DNA from: a virus
Length of the DNA stretch: 28,544 nt
Reading direction: 5' to 3' (one strand)
IMG/VR virus record: IMGVR_UViG_3300020421_000101
Coordinates: 1 to 28,544 of that record
In this document: positions 6,884-17,071 of the stretch, in pieces
Position numbering within the stretch: position 1 is the first letter of the stretch
How the letters are laid out: every line of letters starts with the position of its first letter
Made by a program: the position numbers and the translations under genes
The notes under the pieces: generated by a model
Seen by the model: only the letters and a program-made list of their open reading frames with translations
The model's database searches: none
Told to the model about the DNA's origin: nothing

Positions 6884-8067
6884 ATCTTTTTCGCTTTTTT
6901 GCCAGTAAAGTTTTCCCACCTCTGAATAATCACATCTACATATTTAGGGTCTAGTTCCATCATACAACATTTTCTTTTTGTTTTTTCACAAGCTATTAGT
7001 GTAGAGCCAGAGCCACCAAAACAATCTATAACCAAATCATCTTGTTTACTTGAGTTTTTTATTGCTTTTTCAATTAACTCTATGGGTTTCTGTGTTGGGT
7101 GAACATATTTCGAAGTGTCCCCTCTTGACATCTCCCAGACATCTGATTGGGATTTATCTCCATACCATTGCTCTCCACAATAAAATACAAACTCGTGTTG
7201 AGGTCTATAATGGCTATTTCCTAAACCTATAGATTTTTTATTCCAGACGATACAATTTTTTATATTAAATCCAGAAGTGTTAACGGCTTTCTCAAATTCC
7301 GCATAAGTTCTCCAAGTAAAACATATATAAGCAGAACATCCTTTTTTAGCTTTTGTGTAAGTAGTCGTTAAAGCTTCTTGGACTAAATTAATTAAATCTT
7401 CTCCTTTTAAATCATCGTTTTTTATCATGCCGTGAGCTTTAACTCTTGCACCTTTGGGAGTTGAACCCTCTGCTCTACCACCGCCATACTCCATACCATA
7501 AGGTGGGTCGGTGAATATTAAATCTGCTTTGTCTTTACAAAGTTTATCAAAATCATCTAATTTAGTGCTACTTCCACACATTAGCCTGTGTTCGCCTAAT
7601 TGATAAACATCACCAAGTTTTGATTTAGGTTCTTTGGGAAGTTCTGGAACTTCATCTTCATCAGTTAAATATTCCTCATCATTTACTAACAATTTATCTA
7701 ACTCTGATGAATCAAACCCCAATAACTCTAAATCAAAGTCCACCTCTGATAGACCTGCTATTTCTAGGTTGAGCAACTCCATATCCCAAGTGCTATCCTC
7801 ATTTATTCTATTGTCCGCTATTCTATAGGCTTTAGCTTGGGTCTCTGATAAATCGGCTATGACAGTAGGGACTCTTTTTAAACCTAGTTTTTTAGCACCC
7901 ATAAGCCTTGTGTGGCCTACTACAACCACCATATTTTTATCTACAACTATAGGTTGTTGAAAACCATATTCGTTTATAGAACTTGCCACCTTGTCTACAG
8001 CTTGGTCTTTTCTAGGGTTGTTGTGGTAAGGAATAAGCTTATCTATTGCTATGCTATTTATTTTCAT
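6877..8067 (-). CDS. ParB-domain / DNA methyltransferase fusion
   Basis: A 396-residue enzyme. Residues about 1-90 are a ParB/Srx-like domain with the GHTRLMGAKKLG box (51-62). The rest is an S-adenosylmethionine-dependent amino methyltransferase with catalytic DPPY at 187-190 and the SAM-binding FGGSGST at 350-356, the motif order of beta-class N6-adenine/N4-cytosine enzymes. It would methylate phage DNA at a site not deducible here, protecting it from host nucleases or timing packaging. No restriction partner is visible. I chose the ATG that overlaps the previous stop (TAATG) and has GAGAGG nine bases upstream, rather than an ATG three codons earlier. Confidence 0.92.
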   Translation of the reverse strand: MKINSIAIDKLIPYHNNPRKDQAVDKVASSINEYGFQQPIVVDKNMVVVVGHTRLMGAKKLGLKRVPTVIADLSETQAKAYRIADNRINEDSTWDMELLNLEIAGLSEVDFDLELLGFDSSELDKLLVNDEEYLTDEDEVPELPKEPKSKLGDVYQLGEHRLMCGSSTKLDDFDKLCKDKADLIFTDPPYGMEYGGGRAEGSTPKGARVKAHGMIKNDDLKGEDLINLVQEALTTTYTKAKKGCSAYICFTWRTYAEFEKAVNTSGFNIKNCIVWNKKSIGLGNSHYRPQHEFVFYCGEQWYGDKSQSDVWEMSRGDTSKYVHPTQKPIELIEKAIKNSSKQDDLVIDCFGGSGSTLIACEKTKRKCCMMELDPKYVDVIIQRWENFTGKKAKKIC

Positions 8068-8933
8068 TATAACCATCCTCTCAAATCTAAATATGTTTCG
8101 GCTTGTTCTTTGGAGAACTCTCCATCTTTTATAGCTCTCTGCACTTCCTCAATATTTTTTAAAGCTTGTTGAGAAACGTAATTTCTAGACCTTTTTTCCT
8201 CTACAACCTTTTTGTAGTCTTTGAGTCTAAGGGGGTACAAATCAACCTTTTCTGTGCTTTGTGCTTTAGGTTGTTCATCCTCATATTTTTTAGCCGATAA
8301 CCAAAAAGCAGGTTGTTTAGCAAATTGTTTATCTTCCACCGACTTGTAGTACTTGTTATACATCTCCGCTAGTTCTTCTGGCTTTTCTATCCATTCCTTT
8401 TCTAACTTCATGTAATTCTTTTCGGCTGTTCCCTTAGATACTTTATTCGCTACCTTTTCCCAAAATTTTAAAAAAGAGGGAGCGTAACTTACTTTGGTTT
8501 GTCTAGGGGTAGTGGTAGGGGTAGGGGTTAGGGGGGTTTTATCTAGGTTATCGCTAGGTTCGGTGCTAGGTTTTTTTGGTCTACCACCTAACTTACCATT
8601 TTCCTTAGATGCTTCCATACGCCTTGAAATATAGAGATATTCTTGTAGTTGTCTTTCGTTCTGGTAATTATCGTTCACTAGAACAAAAAACTCTTTTAGA
8701 ACATTATCACAGCTTTTTTTCTCATTATCTGTAAAACAGTTAGCTATTCTGTACTGTGTATTTGCATCATTTGGTATACCTGCACAGCGTTTATTCCAGT
8801 TAAAACATAAAAGCCTTATGTATATTCCTACTTCCTCATTTGTAAGGTGTTGAGTACCTGCAACAAAGTCTTCTGTAAAAAGATACCACGCTTTCATTTT
8901 CTGCGTTGGTTTTGAATTTTCGTGTATAATCAT
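8067..8933 (-). CDS. DUF1376-type replication protein
   Basis: A 288-residue protein. Residues 13-110 match the DUF1376 pattern: KAWYLFTEDFVAGTQHLTNE, then GIYIRLLCFNWNK and an IPND turn, a winged-helix-like domain found at the N-terminus of phage and prophage replication proteins (YdaU-like). A GRPKKP segment and a Thr/Pro-rich linker (about 120-145) follow, then a helical C-terminal domain with FLKFWEKV and QPAFWLSAKKYED. It probably binds the phage origin or loads the host helicase; no helicase or polymerase is visible. The ATG has the recurrent GGAGTTC leader upstream. Confidence 0.75.
   Translation of the reverse strand: MIIHENSKPTQKMKAWYLFTEDFVAGTQHLTNEEVGIYIRLLCFNWNKRCAGIPNDANTQYRIANCFTDNEKKSCDNVLKEFFVLVNDNYQNERQLQEYLYISRRMEASKENGKLGGRPKKPSTEPSDNLDKTPLTPTPTTTPRQTKVSYAPSFLKFWEKVANKVSKGTAEKNYMKLEKEWIEKPEELAEMYNKYYKSVEDKQFAKQPAFWLSAKKYEDEQPKAQSTEKVDLYPLRLKDYKKVVEEKRSRNYVSQQALKNIEEVQRAIKDGEFSKEQAETYLDLRGWL
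8506..8536 (+). other. G-quadruplex-forming motif inside the replication gene
   Basis: The plus strand, which is the template strand of the replication gene, carries four runs of at least four G separated by loops of 8, 2 and 3 bases (8506-8509, 8518-8521, 8524-8527, 8531-8536). This fits the general four-tract quadruplex rule with one slightly long loop. On the coding side it specifies the Thr/Pro linker between the two domains. Confidence 0.65.
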
Positions 8934-8937
8934 TTTA

Positions 8938-8947
8938 GAACTCCAAT
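8938..8947 (-). promoter_or_regulatory. Recurrent ATTGGAGTTC leader/ribosome binding site
   Basis: The decamer ATTGGAGTTC (minus strand) precedes the replication gene start, with GGAG as ribosome binding site. Identical decamers occur at 11923-11932, 13274-13283, 13629-13638 and 13782-13791. At the two strongest sites the decamer follows a clear promoter, so a promoter is likely near here. TACAAT at 8956-8961 could be its -10, but the -35 region is poor. Confidence 0.45.
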
Positions 8948-8960
8948 CTTAGTTTATTGT

Positions 8961-8994
8961 AACCCCTCTAAGTCGAAACCTAAAGGGGTTTTTT
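8961..8994 (+). terminator. Hairpin with T tract, oriented rightward
   Basis: AACCCCT (8961-8967) pairs with AGGGGTT (8984-8990) around a 16-base loop, and six T residues begin at 8989 on the plus strand. As a terminator it works rightward, against the direction of the flanking genes. The same hairpin on the minus strand lacks a T tract. It may block antisense transcription, or act as a leader structure before the replication gene. Confidence 0.45.
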
Positions 8995-8997
8995 GGT

Positions 8998-9774
8998 TTA
9001 ATACCCCCAAACGTCCTTTCTAGCTTGAAGAACAGTAGGTTCTTTCCATATCCAGTTGTCTGGATTAGGCACTAGAGAGTTTCTAACGTCATCTGGGTTA
9101 TCAACAGTTTTTAAGTAATTACCCATCACCTTTAGAATATGCTTACATATCCGCATAGGCTCACCATAATCATCTAAAGACATAGCAATAAATTCAGCAT
9201 CTTTTGTCTTAGTAGGGTTCTTCAGATACCATAGATGTTGCGTAGCATTAGTTGCTTTCTGATAGATAGACTGTTGCATGGCATGGGAAATACTAACTCT
9301 CTGGGGTAGGCTTTTAGACGTTTTCAAGTCGATATAAAAATCCTCTTTGGTCTTCTTATCTTCAAAATGAAAGTCGGTGTAACCCACAAAGGGTATGGTA
9401 TCTATTTCTAATTCTACCTTCTTCTGGTAGGTCAATAGATTCCATGAGTAAGCGTATTTCTGAAACTCCTTAGTACCTAGATTTAAAAGTGGCAATAAGT
9501 TATTTCGTTCATCGTCTACTTTAGGGTCATTTATCCTTGAGCAATTAGTATCATATTCCGCTAACATTTTTTCTTTAGCTTCTTCTAAAGGTATTCCATT
9601 TAGAAACATATTGATACCAGACTCCACAGACTGACCCCTAATACCAGACGCACTTGTAGGGAAATCATAGCCAAATATTCTTTTTAACGCCCATCGTTCC
9701 CTGTAAAAAGCGAACTCATTGAGGTGACTAAAAGATAAAGGCAACAAATCAAATTTTTCAAAATGCTCTCTCAT
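8998..9774 (-). CDS. PD-(D/E)XK exonuclease, RecB/Cas4-like
   Basis: A 258-residue nuclease. The LSFSHLNEFAFYRERW start (residues 13-28) resembles the first helix of RecB-family nucleases. The catalytic core is visible as GYTD (131-134), then IDLKTSK (148-154, the D...xLK motif) and the QxxxY motif at 167-171. The family cuts DNA in recombination and repair, and phages use it as an end-processing exonuclease. It lies in the early operon with an OB-like protein, an HNH protein and the replication gene, consistent with replication/recombination. The start overlaps the previous gene as ATGA. Confidence 0.85.
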   Translation of the reverse strand: MREHFEKFDLLPLSFSHLNEFAFYRERWALKRIFGYDFPTSASGIRGQSVESGINMFLNGIPLEEAKEKMLAEYDTNCSRINDPKVDDERNNLLPLLNLGTKEFQKYAYSWNLLTYQKKVELEIDTIPFVGYTDFHFEDKKTKEDFYIDLKTSKSLPQRVSISHAMQQSIYQKATNATQHLWYLKNPTKTKDAEFIAMSLDDYGEPMRICKHILKVMGNYLKTVDNPDDVRNSLVPNPDNWIWKEPTVLQARKDVWGY

Positions 9775-10019
9775 ATCTTATCCATGTATTCTTGAGTGTG
9801 CTTTTTGTTTTCTTCAATTTGTTTTTTCAAATCAAAGCATAAATCATAAACATTACTTTCCCTGCCAAATCGAATTAAGTATTCATCAATAGCATTTATA
9901 AGCCTATCCATTACCCTTATTTCACTTGAGTGCTTGGCTAAAGCGTGTTCTTTTCTTTGGTCTATAGCTTTGTCCATTTCCCACTCAAGGAAACTTTTTG
10001 AATTATCATAATCAACCAT
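9771..10019 (-). CDS. Small charged helical protein
   Basis: An 82-residue protein of unknown function, rich in Lys, Glu, Asp and Ile, predicted to be almost entirely helical; the C-terminal segment ends EENKKHTQEYMDKI. It overlaps the gene before by 8 bases and the nuclease after by ATGA, so it is translated together with the nuclease. It could be an accessory or partner of that enzyme. No motif is recognisable. Confidence 0.65.
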   Translation of the reverse strand: MVDYDNSKSFLEWEMDKAIDQRKEHALAKHSSEIRVMDRLINAIDEYLIRFGRESNVYDLCFDLKKQIEENKKHTQEYMDKI

Positions 10020-10227
10020 TGTTTTGACCCTTCACAAGTTCATATTCAGCAAAGGTTTTGCCATCGACTGATTTGTTATGAGTGATTATGTTGTAACCCT
10101 CTTGCCTTAATTCAAAGATGATGGCACTCAATCTAAAAGAACCAAATTGATATAAAGCTTCCAATGGGGTTATTTTGTTACCTATGTGAAGGTACTCTAG
10201 GATGTTTTCCTTTTGTGATTTTGGCAT
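10012..10227 (-). CDS. Winged helix-turn-helix protein
   Basis: A 71-residue DNA-binding protein. The sequence from residue 3, with ITPLEALYQFGSFRLSAIIF followed by ELRQEGYNI and a C-terminal KTFAEYEL strand, matches the small winged-helix proteins common in phage early regions, in which ITPLEA begins the first HTH helix and GSFRLSA the recognition region. It may be a transcription regulator or an origin-binding factor. A longer start 15 codons upstream is possible, but the chosen ATG has a strong AGGAG seven bases away and leaves only 13 bases to the previous stop. Confidence 0.75.
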   Translation of the reverse strand: MPKSQKENILEYLHIGNKITPLEALYQFGSFRLSAIIFELRQEGYNIITHNKSVDGKTFAEYELVKGQNNG

Positions 10228-10240
10228 TTCAAACTCCTTT

Positions 10241-10597
10241 CTATAAGTTGTGTTTCGCCAGTTCTCGTTCATTGACCACCTTAGTTCTTAGGTCATCTCT
10301 AAACGCTTTGAAGGATTCGAACCTTATCTTGGCTCTATTCCTTTTCTTTAAGGTTTCACTATATCTATTAGTAAAATCCCTAAACTTGTCATGGTTGTAT
10401 ATTAAACCATCTAACTCTTTCATATTCTTATACATTTTTTGTCTGGAAAACTGAAGTGTTAGTTCCGCAACAATCATTTTTTCCTCTTTTTTCATTAGTT
10501 CACAAGCGGTATCTAAATCCGCAAATATCATCCCTAATTCTTCCTGTTGATGAGAAATTTTATGGGGGTCAAATTGTAGTGAATAAATATCGGTCAT
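10241..10597 (-). CDS. Helical early phage protein of unknown function
   Basis: A 118-residue, mostly helical protein, positively charged in its second half (YSETLKKRNRAKIRFESFKA). The pattern 'ELTLQFSRQKMYKNMKELDG ... AFRDDLR' resembles small phage proteins often encoded beside recombination genes, but I cannot assign a role. The start is the ATG that overlaps the previous TGA (ATGA), with CGGAG upstream; a GTG three codons earlier is less likely because the GGAG would be too close. Confidence 0.65.
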   Translation of the reverse strand: MTDIYSLQFDPHKISHQQEELGMIFADLDTACELMKKEEKMIVAELTLQFSRQKMYKNMKELDGLIYNHDKFRDFTNRYSETLKKRNRAKIRFESFKAFRDDLRTKVVNERELAKHNL

Positions 10598-10851: not shown

Positions 10852-11134
10852 CTGGGTTTCCTTTTTTCCATTCAATTCGCTCTAATAAATCTTTTTTCCA
10901 TTGCTCGTTTAGTTCCTTATCGGAATGTCCTAAAGTATGGCATTTGCGACACAAGGCATAAAGGTTATCAATTCTGTTGAGCCTGTTGTTTTTGACTCCA
11001 CCCATGCCTTTCGGAATCAAGTGGTGTATATCAACCGCCACTTCTTTATGACAATTCCAACATAAGGGGATATCGTTTTCGTGATACCCCCAAAAGTCGC
11101 TGAAAAGCTTCTTATAGTTTTTTAAGGTTTTCAT
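10841..11134 (-). CDS. HNH endonuclease
   Basis: A 97-residue HNH nuclease. CWNC (25-28) and CRKCH (62-66) supply the zinc-binding cysteines, and VDIHHLIPKGMGG (34-46) with IDNLYALC (55-62) is the H-N-H core. It lies among replication genes, not beside the terminase, so it could be a repair/recombination nuclease or a homing-type enzyme rather than the HNH protein that assists packaging in some phages. The ATG chosen has AAGG upstream and overlaps the previous gene by 23 bases; longer TTG/ATG starts are possible. Confidence 0.85.
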   Translation of the reverse strand: MKTLKNYKKLFSDFWGYHENDIPLCWNCHKEVAVDIHHLIPKGMGGVKNNRLNRIDNLYALCRKCHTLGHSDKELNEQWKKDLLERIEWKKGNPDGW

Positions 11135-11594
11135 TGAACGCCTTAACCGCATTTTTAGTAAGTTCCTCAATATCGTTTACTGAGAAGTGACCAGACCCCA
11201 TAGACCTACCAACAACACCAGTTACGAATATATCAAGACGCTGTGTATCGGTCTTATTAAAGCCGTTAGAAGGTGCTTTAGGTGTAAAGGTATTATTAGC
11301 CTGTGGCATCGGTTGTGGCGGTTGTGTGGGCGTATATTGCGGTGCTTGTGGAGGTTGATAGGACGCCTGTTGGTCATTTGGCATTGATGCTATCTCAACG
11401 TCCTTAATATTGGTATATGGGTTGCCATTAGCTGAAGTCTTTGTATTTATGACTGTGTAGTTAATAGCATCACCAGATTGTGGCATGGGGTTCATAACTG
11501 TTCCCCTGTAATAAAGCCTAGTGCCATCTATCAAGTCGATAGAGTAATTAGGAACTCCATCTTTCGTATTATCAAATATTTTATCTATTATCAT
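11112..11594 (-). CDS. OB-like, possibly single-strand DNA-binding protein
   Basis: A 160-residue protein with three parts. Residues 1-75 are beta-rich (YSIDLIDGTRLYYRGTVM, then INYTVINTKTSANGNPYT) and could be an OB-like fold. Residues 75-110 are a Pro/Gln linker. The C-terminal part has RLDIFVTGVVGRSM and a helix (VNDIEELTKNAVKAFNENLK). This layout and the location with nucleases suggest a single-strand DNA-binding role, but no family signature is certain. AAGGA precedes the start. The lipoprotein gene lies 14 bases upstream. Confidence 0.55.
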   Translation of the reverse strand: MIIDKIFDNTKDGVPNYSIDLIDGTRLYYRGTVMNPMPQSGDAINYTVINTKTSANGNPYTNIKDVEIASMPNDQQASYQPPQAPQYTPTQPPQPMPQANNTFTPKAPSNGFNKTDTQRLDIFVTGVVGRSMGSGHFSVNDIEELTKNAVKAFNENLKKL

Positions 11595-11608: not shown

Positions 11609-11920
11609 TTATTTATTGATTACATTATAGCCACGACCCTCTAAACACCTATTAACAAAATCCTTTCTGGTATTTGCTTTAGGTGAAAGCCATAGCACTC
11701 TCCACCTTAGACCATTATAGACTGCTTTGCTCTTATCCCAAACGTAACTGGTCTGGTCTTGTACTAAGCTTTTACAGGTATAATAATCATCGTGAAAGCG
11801 GTTCATGTCACCCTTAATGTTGGCTGACGATTTTCCTCTAGAGTCAACTATTGGCATGGTTGAACAACCGCTAACAATAGCTACTGACAATAAAGTGAAA
11901 ATTAGTTTTGATTTTTTCAT
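11609..11920 (-). CDS. Exported lipoprotein
   Basis: A 103-residue lipoprotein precursor. A KK-containing n-region and a hydrophobic h-region lead to the lipobox VSGC with the lipidated Cys at 19; Ser at +2 predicts outer-membrane sorting. The mature part has two cysteines (about residues 49 and 92), a DDYYTC segment, a Trp-rich NGLRWRVLWLSP stretch and RCLEGRGYNVI. Its place in the early operon behind its own promoter, far from the lysis genes, suggests it changes the host envelope during infection; superinfection exclusion is a reasonable but untested idea. Confidence 0.8.
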   Translation of the reverse strand: MKKSKLIFTLLSVAIVSGCSTMPIVDSRGKSSANIKGDMNRFHDDYYTCKSLVQDQTSYVWDKSKAVYNGLRWRVLWLSPKANTRKDFVNRCLEGRGYNVINK

Positions 11921-11946
11921 TTGAACTCCAATTCAATTTAAAACCT

Positions 11947-11976
11947 ATATTAGTTTTTGGGTTATGTCTATGTGAA
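11947..11976 (-). promoter_or_regulatory. Promoter before the lipoprotein gene
   Basis: Minus-strand TTCACA (11971-11976) and TAATAT (11947-11952) are spaced 18 bases apart. The flanks keep part of the AACC...GGTTT arrangement of the two stronger promoters at 13308-13341 and 13663-13696. The ATTGGAGTTC leader follows before the ATG. The -35 overlaps the end of the 29-residue gene upstream. Confidence 0.55.
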
Positions 11977-12840: not shown

Positions 12841-13025
12841 TATTTCTGCTCCCTTATTTTAGTGAATAAATCATGAACGTGTGTGATGTTTTGCTTTACT
12901 CCCTCAAGCTTTAACCATTCGCTTTTCTGAAGAGGGGTTTCCCCATCATCCGTACAATCCATCCAATAATCGTGATATAAATTTTCAGTTACGTCTTCAA
13001 TGCTGATTGGTGTGAGTTTTATCAT
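12840..13025 (-). CDS. Small acidic unknown early protein
   Basis: A 61-residue protein containing the acidic segment NLYHDYWMDCTDDGETP and a helical C-terminus (VHDLFTKIREQK). Coupled on both sides by TAATG overlaps, so it is the second gene in the transcript from the 13308-13341 promoter. No family recognised. Confidence 0.6.
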   Translation of the reverse strand: MIKLTPISIEDVTENLYHDYWMDCTDDGETPLQKSEWLKLEGVKQNITHVHDLFTKIREQK

Positions 13026-13270
13026 TACTCAACCCAAACTAAAGTGGTAGGATTTACCCTTTCATATCGTTTTTCATTTTCTGAAACTGTTCTAATGGTA
13101 TATCCAAAGTTAGCTTCAGAACTGTTAGTGCTATAGATTTCCCAACAATCATTACTGTTGCTATCTAATTTAAACCATACTTTTTTAAGGTTAGCTATTG
13201 GTGTAATTAACCCATTACCACAAGTGATTACAGTTTCTGGGTCTGTCAATTTGTTTAGTTGTATTTTCAT
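13025..13270 (-). CDS. First gene after the 13308-13341 promoter, unknown
   Basis: An 81-residue, beta-rich protein (TVITCGNGLITPIANLKKVW, then WEIYSTNSSEANFGYTIRTV). A TTG four codons earlier is in frame, but the ATG is six or seven bases after GGAG in the ATTGGAGTTC leader and exactly 71 bases from the -35 start, so it is preferred. Function unknown; strong promoter and first position suggest early, abundant expression. Confidence 0.7.
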   Translation of the reverse strand: MKIQLNKLTDPETVITCGNGLITPIANLKKVWFKLDSNSNDCWEIYSTNSSEANFGYTIRTVSENEKRYERVNPTTLVWVE

Positions 13271-13307
13271 TTTGAACTCCAATCTATTATTATTATTAGT
13301 ATTAATA

Positions 13308-13341
13308 AACCTAGTATAAATTCTAGGTTATTCATTGTCAA
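13308..13341 (-). promoter_or_regulatory. Strong promoter with overlapping palindromic operator (copy 2)
   Basis: Minus-strand TTGACA (13336-13341) and TATACT (13313-13318) with an ideal 17-base spacer. The -10 lies within an inverted repeat, AACCTAG-N8-CTAGGTT (13308-13329), placed where a repressor would block RNA polymerase. The -35 overlaps the TGA of the gene upstream. A second copy with the same dyad and the same distance to its start codon lies at 13663-13696. Confidence 0.85.
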
Positions 13342-13625
13342 GTATATTTGTTTATAAATTTTCTCATTTGGTTGGTTTGCTTTCTCCAATCAGCATCTTT
13401 TGTATTTCTTGAGTGACCTTGCTCGTTGTAATCCTCAAGTCTTTCTTTTGCTAATCTAAGAATGAATTTATCAGTAAAATTTTCAGATGTTATTTCAGAA
13501 CTCTCTGACAAAAGGACATTATTGCCATACCACCCTTTGCCCTCTATCTTCATAGTAGAAACAACAGTTTGAAAATATAGAAATAAAGCATCTATCTTTT
13601 TTGCATCTTGAATTATTTTTCTCAA
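13338..13625 (-). CDS. First gene after the 13663-13696 promoter, TTG start
   Basis: A 95-residue protein of unknown function. It is basic and helical at the C-terminus (QTNQMRKFINKYT), with a DADWRKQTNQ segment and an earlier VVSTMKIEGKGWYGNN strand region. The start is a TTG: it lies six bases after GGAG and 71 bases from the start of the -35 element, the same spacing as the ATG of the paralogous promoter unit. A further TTG four codons earlier overlaps the ribosome binding site and is unlikely. Confidence 0.65.
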   Translation of the reverse strand: MRKIIQDAKKIDALFLYFQTVVSTMKIEGKGWYGNNVLLSESSEITSENFTDKFILRLAKERLEDYNEQGHSRNTKDADWRKQTNQMRKFINKYT

Positions 13626-13662
13626 TTTGAACTCCAATTTATTATTATTATTAACGTCTATA

Positions 13663-13696
13663 AACCTAGAATATAAGCTAGGTTATTAAATGTCAA
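13663..13696 (-). promoter_or_regulatory. Strong promoter with overlapping palindromic operator (copy 1)
   Basis: Minus-strand TTGACA (13691-13696), 17-base spacer, TATTCT (13668-13673). An inverted repeat AACCTAG-N8-CTAGGTT (13663-13684) covers the -10 exactly as in the copy at 13308-13341. A (TAA) repeat leader and ATTGGAGTTC follow. It would drive the first leftward early transcript. Confidence 0.85.
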
Positions 13697-13781
13697 CAAC
13701 AAAAATGAAAAAATATTGTGATTTGGTGTTTTTTTTGGTATTTTTATGATATTCCTCCTAAATAAGCGGAATATACAAAGT

Positions 13782-13791
13782 GAACTCCAAT
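13782..13791 (-). promoter_or_regulatory. Orphan copy of the ATTGGAGTTC leader
   Basis: The same decamer found before four early genes, but here it is followed only by TTG and five sense codons before a stop, then by a perfect AGGAGG (13754-13759) with no ATG, GTG or TTG at a usable distance. It may be a leader-peptide site, a remnant of a lost first gene, or a protein or RNA binding site. The 13626-13865 stretch also holds the promoter at 13663-13696 and the hairpin at 13807-13865. Confidence 0.4.
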
Positions 13792-13806
13792 TCGTTTGTA
13801 TAGCTT

Positions 13807-13865
13807 GGGGGTAAATTTTATAACTTAGATGGGTCAAATCTCATTAGAATTTAGAACTTACCCCC
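13807..13865 (+). promoter_or_regulatory. Inverted repeat ending at the VRR-NUC start codon
   Basis: GGGGGTAA (13807-13814) is complementary to TTACCCCC (13858-13865), eight uninterrupted pairs spanning 43 bases, and the right arm touches the ATG. In the rightward mRNA the stem would occupy the ribosome binding region, where no Shine-Dalgarno sequence exists. As DNA it could be an operator for divergent control. Confidence 0.6.
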
Positions 13866-14228
13866 ATGACAAAAGAATCAGACATACAAATAGCCTGTAA
13901 TGATTACCTAAATTACCTTTGCAAATACTACCATTTTCGGCACTTCCATGTTCCGAATGAAGGCCAGAAGTCTATTGGATATCATTTAAAGCTGAAAAAG
14001 ATGGGTTTGAAGTCTGGTTGTCCTGATATTATTGTAGAATATCCAGAAGGCCGTATTCTTTATATTGAGTTGAAGAATGAAAAAGGTAGGCTATCTGATG
14101 CTCAAAAGCTTTGGGCGGTACAATCAAAAGCTATGGATACACCTCATTTTATTGTCAAGGGTGGGGTTACTGAATGTTTAGACCAGATAAAAGAGATTAT
14201 TGAAATAAACGTCCCTGTGCGGTCTTAA
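13866..14228 (+). CDS. VRR-NUC nuclease
   Basis: A 120-residue stand-alone VRR-NUC nuclease of the PD-(D/E)XK superfamily. An N-terminal KESDIQ, the HVPNEG segment (28-33), GLKSGCPDII (47-56) with catalytic Asp54, and YIELKNEKGRLS (66-77) with Glu68 and Lys70, then Gln80, give the full motif set. Stand-alone phage members of this family act as structure-specific or nicking nucleases. It is the only rightward gene. It starts against a hairpin without a ribosome binding site, and ends 11 bases from the stop of a convergent gene with no terminator between. An in-frame stop shortly upstream rules out a longer start. Confidence 0.9.
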   Translation: MTKESDIQIACNDYLNYLCKYYHFRHFHVPNEGQKSIGYHLKLKKMGLKSGCPDIIVEYPEGRILYIELKNEKGRLSDAQKLWAVQSKAMDTPHFIVKGGVTECLDQIKEIIEINVPVRS

Positions 14229-15875: not shown

Positions 15876-16201
15876 TTTTTACCCCCTGTTCTATCTAAGA
15901 CCGAAAACCCCATGAAAGCACCAACTATCCCTGCTTGTGCCAGATAAAATAGGTTTGATAGGTCTGTGAGTAGTTTTATTCGTGAGTCTGGTATTAAGGG
16001 GGTGAACATTATTACTGTGAAGACCAACATTGACCCTAAAGCCACCCACGCCATGTTTCTCTGGTGTTTTTGTTTTCTGTTTATTCTTTTGACTTCTTCG
16101 GCTTGTTGCCAACTATCTATTTCAATATCGGAAATAACACCATCTTTGTTAGCGTCCATTTCGTTATATTTTGAATCTTTTTCTAGTTTCTTTTGTGTCA
16201 T
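15872..16201 (-). CDS. EF-hand membrane protein in the lysis region
   Basis: A 109-residue protein with an N-terminal canonical EF-hand loop, DANKDGVISDIE at 16-27 (oxygen ligands at loop positions 1, 3, 5, 9 and 12 and Gly at 6). A basic linker (38-48) follows, then two membrane spans (about 49-70 and 85-102). Joined to both neighbours by ATGA, it is clearly part of the lysis operon. Two-span topology suits a second holin or antiholin; the calcium site suggests sensing or membrane targeting. The function is inferred. Confidence 0.75.
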   Translation of the reverse strand: MTQKKLEKDSKYNEMDANKDGVISDIEIDSWQQAEEVKRINRKQKHQRNMAWVALGSMLVFTVIMFTPLIPDSRIKLLTDLSNLFYLAQAGIVGAFMGFSVLDRTGGKK

Positions 16202-16668
16202 TTTTTAAAACTCTTATTTAGTGAATCTACAACGCTATCTATGTTAGGCGGTTCTCCGTTTGGGTCATACCGACAATTAAACTCTACTGGACATTGACCC
16301 TCAACCACTAGCGTATAGGTATTGTTTGCACCCCTGTATAAACATACTTGCTGTCCGTTCTTTGCCATAACTCTTTTATATCTCCTACACGTTACATACT
16401 TTGGGTCTTCTCTAATCCCTTTTCTTTTTTCCTGTTCCCATGTCCAGTCGCTAAACTTCTTTAGAAAACAAGTATAACAGTTTTTTATGTTGTCGGATTT
16501 AGCTAAATATATTATTTCCCCTTCTACACATAACCATTCAAATGTTTCTTGACCGCCTTGCTTCCTTATACATTTATCCAAACCATCCCCTGTCGAGTCC
16601 CATAAGGGAGTAGATAAAAAGACCAAGTATACCGATACCAACACTAAGAACGACAATGAGTGCAACAA
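16198..16668 (-). CDS. Cysteine-rich protein, possibly exported
   Basis: A frame of up to 156 residues with about nine cysteines spread over its last 125 residues (NCYTCF, then YVTCRRYK, QVCLYRG, GQCPVEFNC), which suggests disulfides and export. The first 25 residues of the long form are hydrophobic and could be a signal sequence, with a TTG start and AAAGG nine bases upstream, but this stretch overlaps 95 bases of the preceding gene's membrane span in another frame. A TTG near residue 30 (after AGGGG) would give a form without it. By position it might be a spanin partner. Confidence 0.6.
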   Translation of the reverse strand: MLHSLSFLVLVSVYLVFLSTPLWDSTGDGLDKCIRKQGGQETFEWLCVEGEIIYLAKSDNIKNCYTCFLKKFSDWTWEQEKRKGIREDPKYVTCRRYKRVMAKNGQQVCLYRGANNTYTLVVEGQCPVEFNCRYDPNGEPPNIDSVVDSLNKSFKK

Positions 16669-17071
16669 TAGTGATAACCTTTTCCCTAAGTTTTTGTTTA
16701 TCGTAAATCTCCTTTTTCCTTCTGAGCCTTATATCCGCTTCCATCCTAAGTAATTCGTTCCATTTTGACTGGCCGTGACTGTATTGGATGAACGTCCTTA
16801 AATCATTTCTTTGTTGTTCTAACTGGGTTTTTGCGGTAAATGCTTCGATGGCTTCTTGTTCAATACTTTTGCCATTCATTACTTTTTTTAGCAATGAAGG
16901 GTTTTTTGCTGACTTGTGAGCGTTATCAATATCCGAAACAGCACCCATCCATCTTGATAGGTCTTGCGACATAGATTCAAGTTCTCGACCTGCGTGAAAT
17001 GCCTTTTTTATGCCTTGAAAAGCCGTACTGGCTACACTTAAACTGGCTGTGATACTTATAGGGTCAAACAT
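16574..17071 (-). CDS. C-terminally membrane-anchored coiled-coil protein
   Basis: A 165-residue protein starting MFDPISITASLSVASTAFQG, with a charged helical body (residues 30-130, including RRKKEIYDKQKLREK) and a single C-terminal membrane span (about 132-156). Proteins of this layout recur next to lysis genes of marine phages. A helical rod anchored in the inner membrane and overlapping a downstream cysteine-rich gene is similar to the organisation of i-spanin/o-spanin pairs, though classic i-spanins carry the span at the N-terminus, so the role is uncertain. Confidence 0.65.
   Translation of the reverse strand: MFDPISITASLSVASTAFQGIKKAFHAGRELESMSQDLSRWMGAVSDIDNAHKSAKNPSLLKKVMNGKSIEQEAIEAFTAKTQLEQQRNDLRTFIQYSHGQSKWNELLRMEADIRLRRKKEIYDKQKLREKVITIVALIVVLSVGIGILGLFIYSLMGLDRGWFG

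Follow-up and report, generated by a model that had tools for sequence, protein, structure and literature searches.

A probable two-layer early regulon in a marine phage lineage: an operator dyad on promoters and a candidate antisense hairpin for ribosome sites

What is governed by two near-identical promoter cassettes that stand close together in a marine phage genome? The window, by which we mean the whole 28,544-base phage record that was analysed (G000), contains two such cassettes, each with an inverted repeat laid over its -10 element. An earlier note on this DNA took the repeat for a repressor operator common to several early genes. We propose that a small early regulon is controlled from this region, with a dyad operator acting on promoters and an antisense hairpin RNA acting on ribosome sites. 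We hold this to be probable.

Both cassettes lie on the minus strand and are exactly as the earlier note described them. In the first, promoter P(L1) (13313-13341; TTGACA at 13341-13336, a 17-bp spacer and TATACT at 13318-13313) is overlapped at its -10 by operator dyad 1 (13308-13329), an exact AACCTAG-N8-CTAGGTT. The ribosome site TTGGAGTTC follows at 13274-13282, and then the cargo gene 13025-13270. In the second, promoter P(L2) (13668-13696; TTGACA at 13696-13691, 17 bp, TATTCT at 13673-13668) is overlapped by the equally exact dyad 2 (13663-13684), with TTGGAGTTC at 13629-13637 and the cargo gene at 13338-13625. Neither cargo gene has a Pfam match. A TAA-rich leader precedes GGAGTTC in both cassettes, and 71 bases separate the first base of the -35 from the start codon, which is ATG at 13270 and TTG, not ATG, at 13625. 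Across the whole window, a strict scan for promoter-like sites that overlap a dyad and have a ribosome site after them found these two cassettes and no others.

A search for the dyad alone found two exact sites in the window, and six sites at up to three mismatches, against 1.3 expected in shuffles. The weaker third copy, previously placed at 11947-11976, does exist, but as a dyad AACCCA-N10-TAGGTT at 11942-11963. It stands before a small minus-strand lipoprotein gene (11609-11920; cluster c0) that is kept in pelagiphages too, with TTGGAGTTC at 11923-11931; an AACC-N14-GGTT site before this gene is kept in several relatives. A fourth site, absent from the earlier note, is AACCAA-N10-TAGGTT at 8977-8998. 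It precedes a replication/primosomal protein gene (8067-8933, minus strand; PHROG 9327) whose ribosome site, again TTGGAGTTC, is at 8938-8946, and a dyad-like site recurs before the same gene in other loci. The dyads of the lipoprotein and replication genes are weaker than those of the cassettes.

Judged by its sequence, the window belongs to an uncultivated marine phage lineage akin to pelagiphages of the HTVC026P/111P type; its terminase shares 56% identity with the terminases of HTVC026P, 111P, 112P and 202P. The host of the lineage is likely SAR11, by kinship only. Phage_integrase was found in 0 of 19 genomes and HTH_3 in 0 of the 15 genomes with the dyad, and an integrase or CI-like system was rejected on these counts. 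We also note that two overlapping ORFs of the window (16198-16668 and 16574-17071) form one ORF of ~250 amino acids in G003, G005, G006 and others, and that the split recurs in the near relatives G004, G007, G011, G012, G020 and G027.

Is the dyad more than a chance feature of strong promoters? For an unbiased answer, relatives were gathered through the neighbouring VRR-NUC protein, and those with at least 300 bases upstream were counted. The earlier note had named absence of the dyad from close relatives, despite conserved promoters, as the outcome that would tell against it. The dyad is present in all 75 of these relatives, exactly in 55 and otherwise with one mismatch, a level never reached in shuffled sequence. 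In the viral collection, 69 stretches contain the cassette pattern (the dyad, 12-42 bases and GGAGNTCA); with a control dyad of equal base composition in its place, the number is 1. Over 60 unique cassettes the outer 12 bases, AACCTA-N10-TAGGTT, are essentially invariant and drift is confined to the innermost pair; symmetric base changes also occur (AACCCAG-N8-CTGGGTT in G023). A chance origin of the dyad was rejected on the conservation and the control-dyad comparison. That the cassettes are ordinary strong sigma-70 promoters with Shine-Dalgarno sites, symmetric by accident, is consistent with hexamers near consensus, but is hardly credible given the dyad's conservation, the control pattern and a class concordance, described below, that is missing from control genes. 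As a chance feature, the dyad is refuted.

The genes behind the dyad behave quite differently. The first gene falls into 32 families in 76 loci, and this position is hypervariable among relatives: first genes differ in 439 of 497 pairs whose VRR-NUC proteins are at least 93% identical. This comparison indicates exchange of the cargo behind a constant control sequence.

How the dyad would act is suggested by its anatomy. Counted from 0, the dyad position at which the -10 begins is 9, 11 or, in some cassettes, 16, and the -35 shifts along with the -10, leaving a spacer of 16-18 bp, mostly 17. This variable register fits steric occlusion rather than a position-locked activator of the MerR type; a MerR-type site was rejected because the spacers are not of 19 bp and the register is not fixed. 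The -10 lies inside the dyad and transcription is predicted to start at the right edge; the RNA therefore does not contain the dyad as a hairpin, and we infer that the repeat must act in DNA. A terminator or transcribed hairpin was likewise rejected; the dyad covers the -10 and no T run follows. As in known repressor operators, a conserved dyad overlaps promoter elements in several promoters. A repressor operator common to several early genes, as the earlier note had it, is thus the best reading of the dyad's invariance and variable register, and for the repressor itself there is a candidate.

That candidate is the winged-helix protein which the earlier note had tentatively singled out (10012-10272, minus strand). 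A protein with its Pfam domain, HTH_39, is present in 15 of 15 dyad genomes and in none of four dyad-less pelagiphages, which have HTH_3 instead. In its structure model, residues 20-80 are confidently predicted to form a winged helix, and the matches in a fold search are all winged-helix proteins (best E 0.02). This co-occurrence reflects one deep split, however, and is no tighter than that of other clade-specific genes with the dyad. Further, no dyad was seen in HTH_39 phages of another layout (L337-L340, L350 and L357), and in the temperate phage pCB2047-A the annotated repressor and the HTH_39 gene are separate. HTH_39 was therefore not accepted as a proven binder and stays a candidate. The clade-specific protein encoded at 11112-11594 was rejected as the repressor, as it is predicted to be a beta-barrel with a helical tail, its middle at low confidence, and not a helix-turn-helix protein. 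This gene adjoins the HNH gene, and its product, with a predicted beta-barrel and C-terminal helical region, could be a single-strand DNA-binding protein. In L292 (MW202722), an HTH_39 phage with another backbone, a promoter at ~1361-1420 is overlapped by ATGTTGAT-N5-ATCAACAT, just before the operon with its HTH_39 gene.

Given that the phage binder is only a candidate, and that the lineage has neither an HTH_3 repressor nor an integrase, the dyad might instead be the site of a host transcription factor. We find this rather unlikely. The full cassette pattern (not the dyad alone) gave three scattered, chance-like matches in 84,980 genomes and none in Alphaproteobacteria, and the dyad is absent from pelagiphages of SAR11 hosts.

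The proposed second layer lies ~70 bases from the cassettes, in a feature that the earlier note did not include. On the plus strand, a divergent promoter P(R) (13716-13744; TTGTGA at 13716-13721, 17 bp, TATTTT at 13739-13744, with an extended -10 TG) has its predicted start at ~13751 and faces the VRR-NUC nuclease gene (13866-14228), which is divergent from the cassettes. Between them, hairpin HP1 (13772-13802; stem TATACAAA/TTTGTATA) presents the loop GAACTCCAA at 13782-13790, the reverse complement of TTGGAGTTC. The hairpin thus matches the ribosome sites of the very genes described above. It is flanked by HP2 (13749-13774; ATATTCC-CTCCTAAATAAGC-GGAATAT) and HP3 (13807-13865; GGGGGTAA ... 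TTACCCCC), the latter ending at the VRR-NUC start codon. HP2 carries CCTCCT, conserved in part of the lineages, and could also address a ribosome site of the GGAGG type. The VRR-NUC start (13858-13868) comes directly after the CCCCC arm of HP3, with no visible Shine-Dalgarno sequence. In G003, G005, G008, G010 and G014, a conserved segment CTGTTTCACTTC(C)TATAAATACTGCGATTTATTTAAGTACCTCGAAGAA lies between HP1 and VRR-NUC; in the longer of these it is inside a GGGGTAA/TTACCCC repeat.

Nearly all lineages examined have, between VRR-NUC and the dyad, a hairpin whose loop shows the ribosome-site motif. The stems of these HP1-type hairpins differ widely in sequence, with pairing kept, and the loop follows the class of the lineage. 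The plus-strand leader folds better than 200 of 200 shuffles (z -3.8), and an Rfam covariance-model search of 13300-14000 gave no match at E up to 5. In L353, where TTGATA-17-TATTGT precedes the hairpin on the antisense strand and an intrinsic-terminator-like stem follows it, the hairpin is a predicted free-standing RNA gene of roughly 80 bases.

The strand on which the hairpin would be read deserves scrutiny. On the minus strand, its loop would be identical to the ribosome sites, and the hairpin could be a decoy that titrates ribosomes or a RegA-like phage translational repressor, the classes then reflecting the protein's changing specificity. The hairpin is as stable on that strand (27 are more stable as minus and 24 as plus, and G-U pairs likewise do not choose). 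Promoters do discriminate: TTGTnn-17-TAnnnT with the extended TG precedes the hairpin on the plus strand in 24 of 34 lineages, against 0.5 expected and 0 on the minus strand, whereas promoter-like sites upstream of it on the minus strand are at the level of chance (4 of 19 against 3.5 expected). The L353 promoter and terminator are also on the antisense strand. Finally, the six or seven specificities found in close relatives would be hard for a protein to acquire but easy for base pairing. We judge such a decoy to be distinctly unlikely and return to the antisense RNA.

Those specificities are classes shared by loop and ribosome sites. In the window, TTGGAGTTC is found at four genes, those of the two cassettes, the lipoprotein and the replication protein, with its counterpart in the hairpin, and it is these four that have a dyad or a dyad-like site. 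Loops of other lineages correspond to GGAGATC, GGAGCAT, GGAGAAC or GGAGGCA, and the orthologues of these genes have ribosome sites to match. The classes are TTC, ATC, CAT, AAC/AAT and GCA, plus ACGAGGAA and AAGGAGAA in lineages with no detectable VRR-NUC, six or seven in all; examples of their leader sites are TTGGAGTTC, TTGGAGATC and TTGGAGCAT. With GGAG-type sites counted, loop class equals ribosome site at the lipoprotein gene in 17 of 18 genomes and at the replication gene in 14 of 17, counts that are inflated by the relatedness of the genomes. Control genes (portal, with GGAGTTA in nearly all genomes, capsid, gpJ, HNH and others) show no such agreement. The lineages L349/L353 and L341/L342, where no VRR-NUC is detectable, keep both dyad and hairpin, and their loops, ACGAGGAA and AAGGAGAA, match their own sites over 7-9 bases; one L341 cassette breaks the match. 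Other exceptions are the cassettes of G013 (AGGAGAAT), the replication gene of G001, G002 and G025 (GGAGTGA) and the loop of L286/L290 (GGAAAA). In a longest-match test, weakened by automatic ORF starts, at least 9 bases matched in 17 of 47 regulon genes versus 18 of 965 other genes. Because all targets have GGAG, the match is in part the ordinary Shine-Dalgarno core, and discrimination is by the flanking bases only.

The loop class requires at least nine changes on the VRR tree, so one founder event cannot explain the agreement of loop and site. As in known antisense RNAs, the loop is complementary to its target ribosome sites, with covariation. The agreement is most simply explained by base pairing, and a protein of changing specificity, although possible, would be a strained account. 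Might the cassettes merely be copied, mobile promoter-RBS units, comparable to those called PeSL in T4-type phages, with identical sites arising from duplication and gene conversion and no pairing partner at all? Near-identical cassettes do stand before unrelated genes. Yet orthologues that have not moved, the lipoprotein and replication genes, lie kilobases away and switch their sites with the hairpin class, and the stem of the hairpin changes while its loop follows the class. Copying of this kind thus seems very unlikely, and base pairing is the explanation that we adopt.

Taken together, these features suggest the following mechanism, which we offer as a model built from comparison of genomes. 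A dimeric repressor would bind AACCTA-N10-TAGGTT, which overlaps the -10, and exclude RNA polymerase. All mRNAs of the regulon would have one extended ribosome site in common, in the window TTGGAGTTC, and the divergent promoter would produce a leader or small RNA whose hairpin loop is the reverse complement of that site. Duplexes of 10-13 bases between this RNA and the start regions of the cassette, lipoprotein and replication genes would block ribosomes. For this layer, the promoter, the hairpin and the coordinated switching of loop and ribosome sites are seen by comparison, and we infer transcription of the RNA and repression by it. The cassette position would be a docking site, at which near-identical phages exchange small genes without losing the match of the two control sequences. 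The whole gene set is probably turned down at both the DNA and the RNA level, and a likely use would be the shut-off of early and replication genes as infection proceeds. If true, this would be a sequence-addressed RNA switch over whole sets of phage early genes, and it would cover the hypervariable small genes among which anti-host functions may be expected.

Parts of this scheme have precedents. In the phages P1 and P7, the antisense RNA c4 has hairpins that are complementary to a ribosome-binding region; it serves one operon, in lysogeny. The marine hairpin would resemble it in directing antisense hairpins against such a region, but its one loop fits the starts of a number of separate early mRNAs, and its specificity switches as a set. 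The PeSL elements of T4-type phages are repeated early promoter units before small exchangeable genes, with a transcribed stem-loop. The marine cassettes are likewise repeated early promoter units with exchangeable small genes, but their dyad lies over the -10 and forms no hairpin in the RNA. In Staphylococcus aureus, RNAIII is a quorum-sensing effector whose C-rich hairpin loops pair with the Shine-Dalgarno regions of several mRNAs. RNAIII (PMC2837412) is thus similar in that hairpin loops address the ribosome sites of several mRNAs; it is bacterial, whereas the marine RNA would be a phage product whose targets have in common a lineage-specific ribosome-site sequence. Our literature search did not find a set-wise switching address common to operator-bearing promoters.

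The closest parallel is in mycobacteriophages of cluster K. There, 13-bp start-associated sequences (SAS) lie at the ribosome sites of many non-structural genes, and extended elements, termed ESAS, have upstream inverted repeats that overlap SigA-like promoters of 17-18 bp spacing (PMC3203893, PMC11373665, PMC12699233). Described since 2011, both are said to be of unknown role, in 2024 and 2025 papers as well (PMC3203893, PMC11373665, PMC12699233). The 2011 paper among these also records, in four phages, a single reversed SAS away from gene starts. In each of these phages, all of cluster K1, folding predicts a long stem with this lone reversed copy in its 10-base loop (CCTCCTATCC): Angelica (L369, 58634-58646), Anaya (L371, 59870-59882), CrimD (L372, 58835-58847) and Adephagia (L373, 58682-58694). 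By annotation, the copy is intergenic in three of the four. The Adephagia copy is flanked by genes 92 and 93, in the place where late transcription reportedly begins (PMC3203893, PMC11373665, PMC12699233). The three papers make no mention of a hairpin at the reversed SAS or of an antisense role, and give no SAS function; we regard the hairpin, from its predicted fold, as a candidate anti-SAS antisense RNA.

The two systems thus have in common an extended ribosome site, inverted repeats over the promoter and a lone reversed copy in a hairpin loop. They differ in that cluster K phages are unrelated temperate mycobacteriophages with unrelated sequences, and have ~14 sites per genome versus ~4 in the marine phages. 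Membership of the marine system in SAS/ESAS was rejected, as the consensus (GGGATAGGAGCCC) and the phage both differ; it appears to work like SAS but is not a member. A broader reading, which we consider evenly balanced, is that two unrelated phage groups converged on one two-layer regulon of a common operator, an extended ribosome site and one antisense hairpin RNA. The pairing code would drift as a set, and the site would be an address that lets acquired small genes plug into early control. Such convergence would also explain the SAS and ESAS of cluster K, and it supplies a concrete, testable hypothesis for them in phages that can be propagated on M. smegmatis mc2 155.
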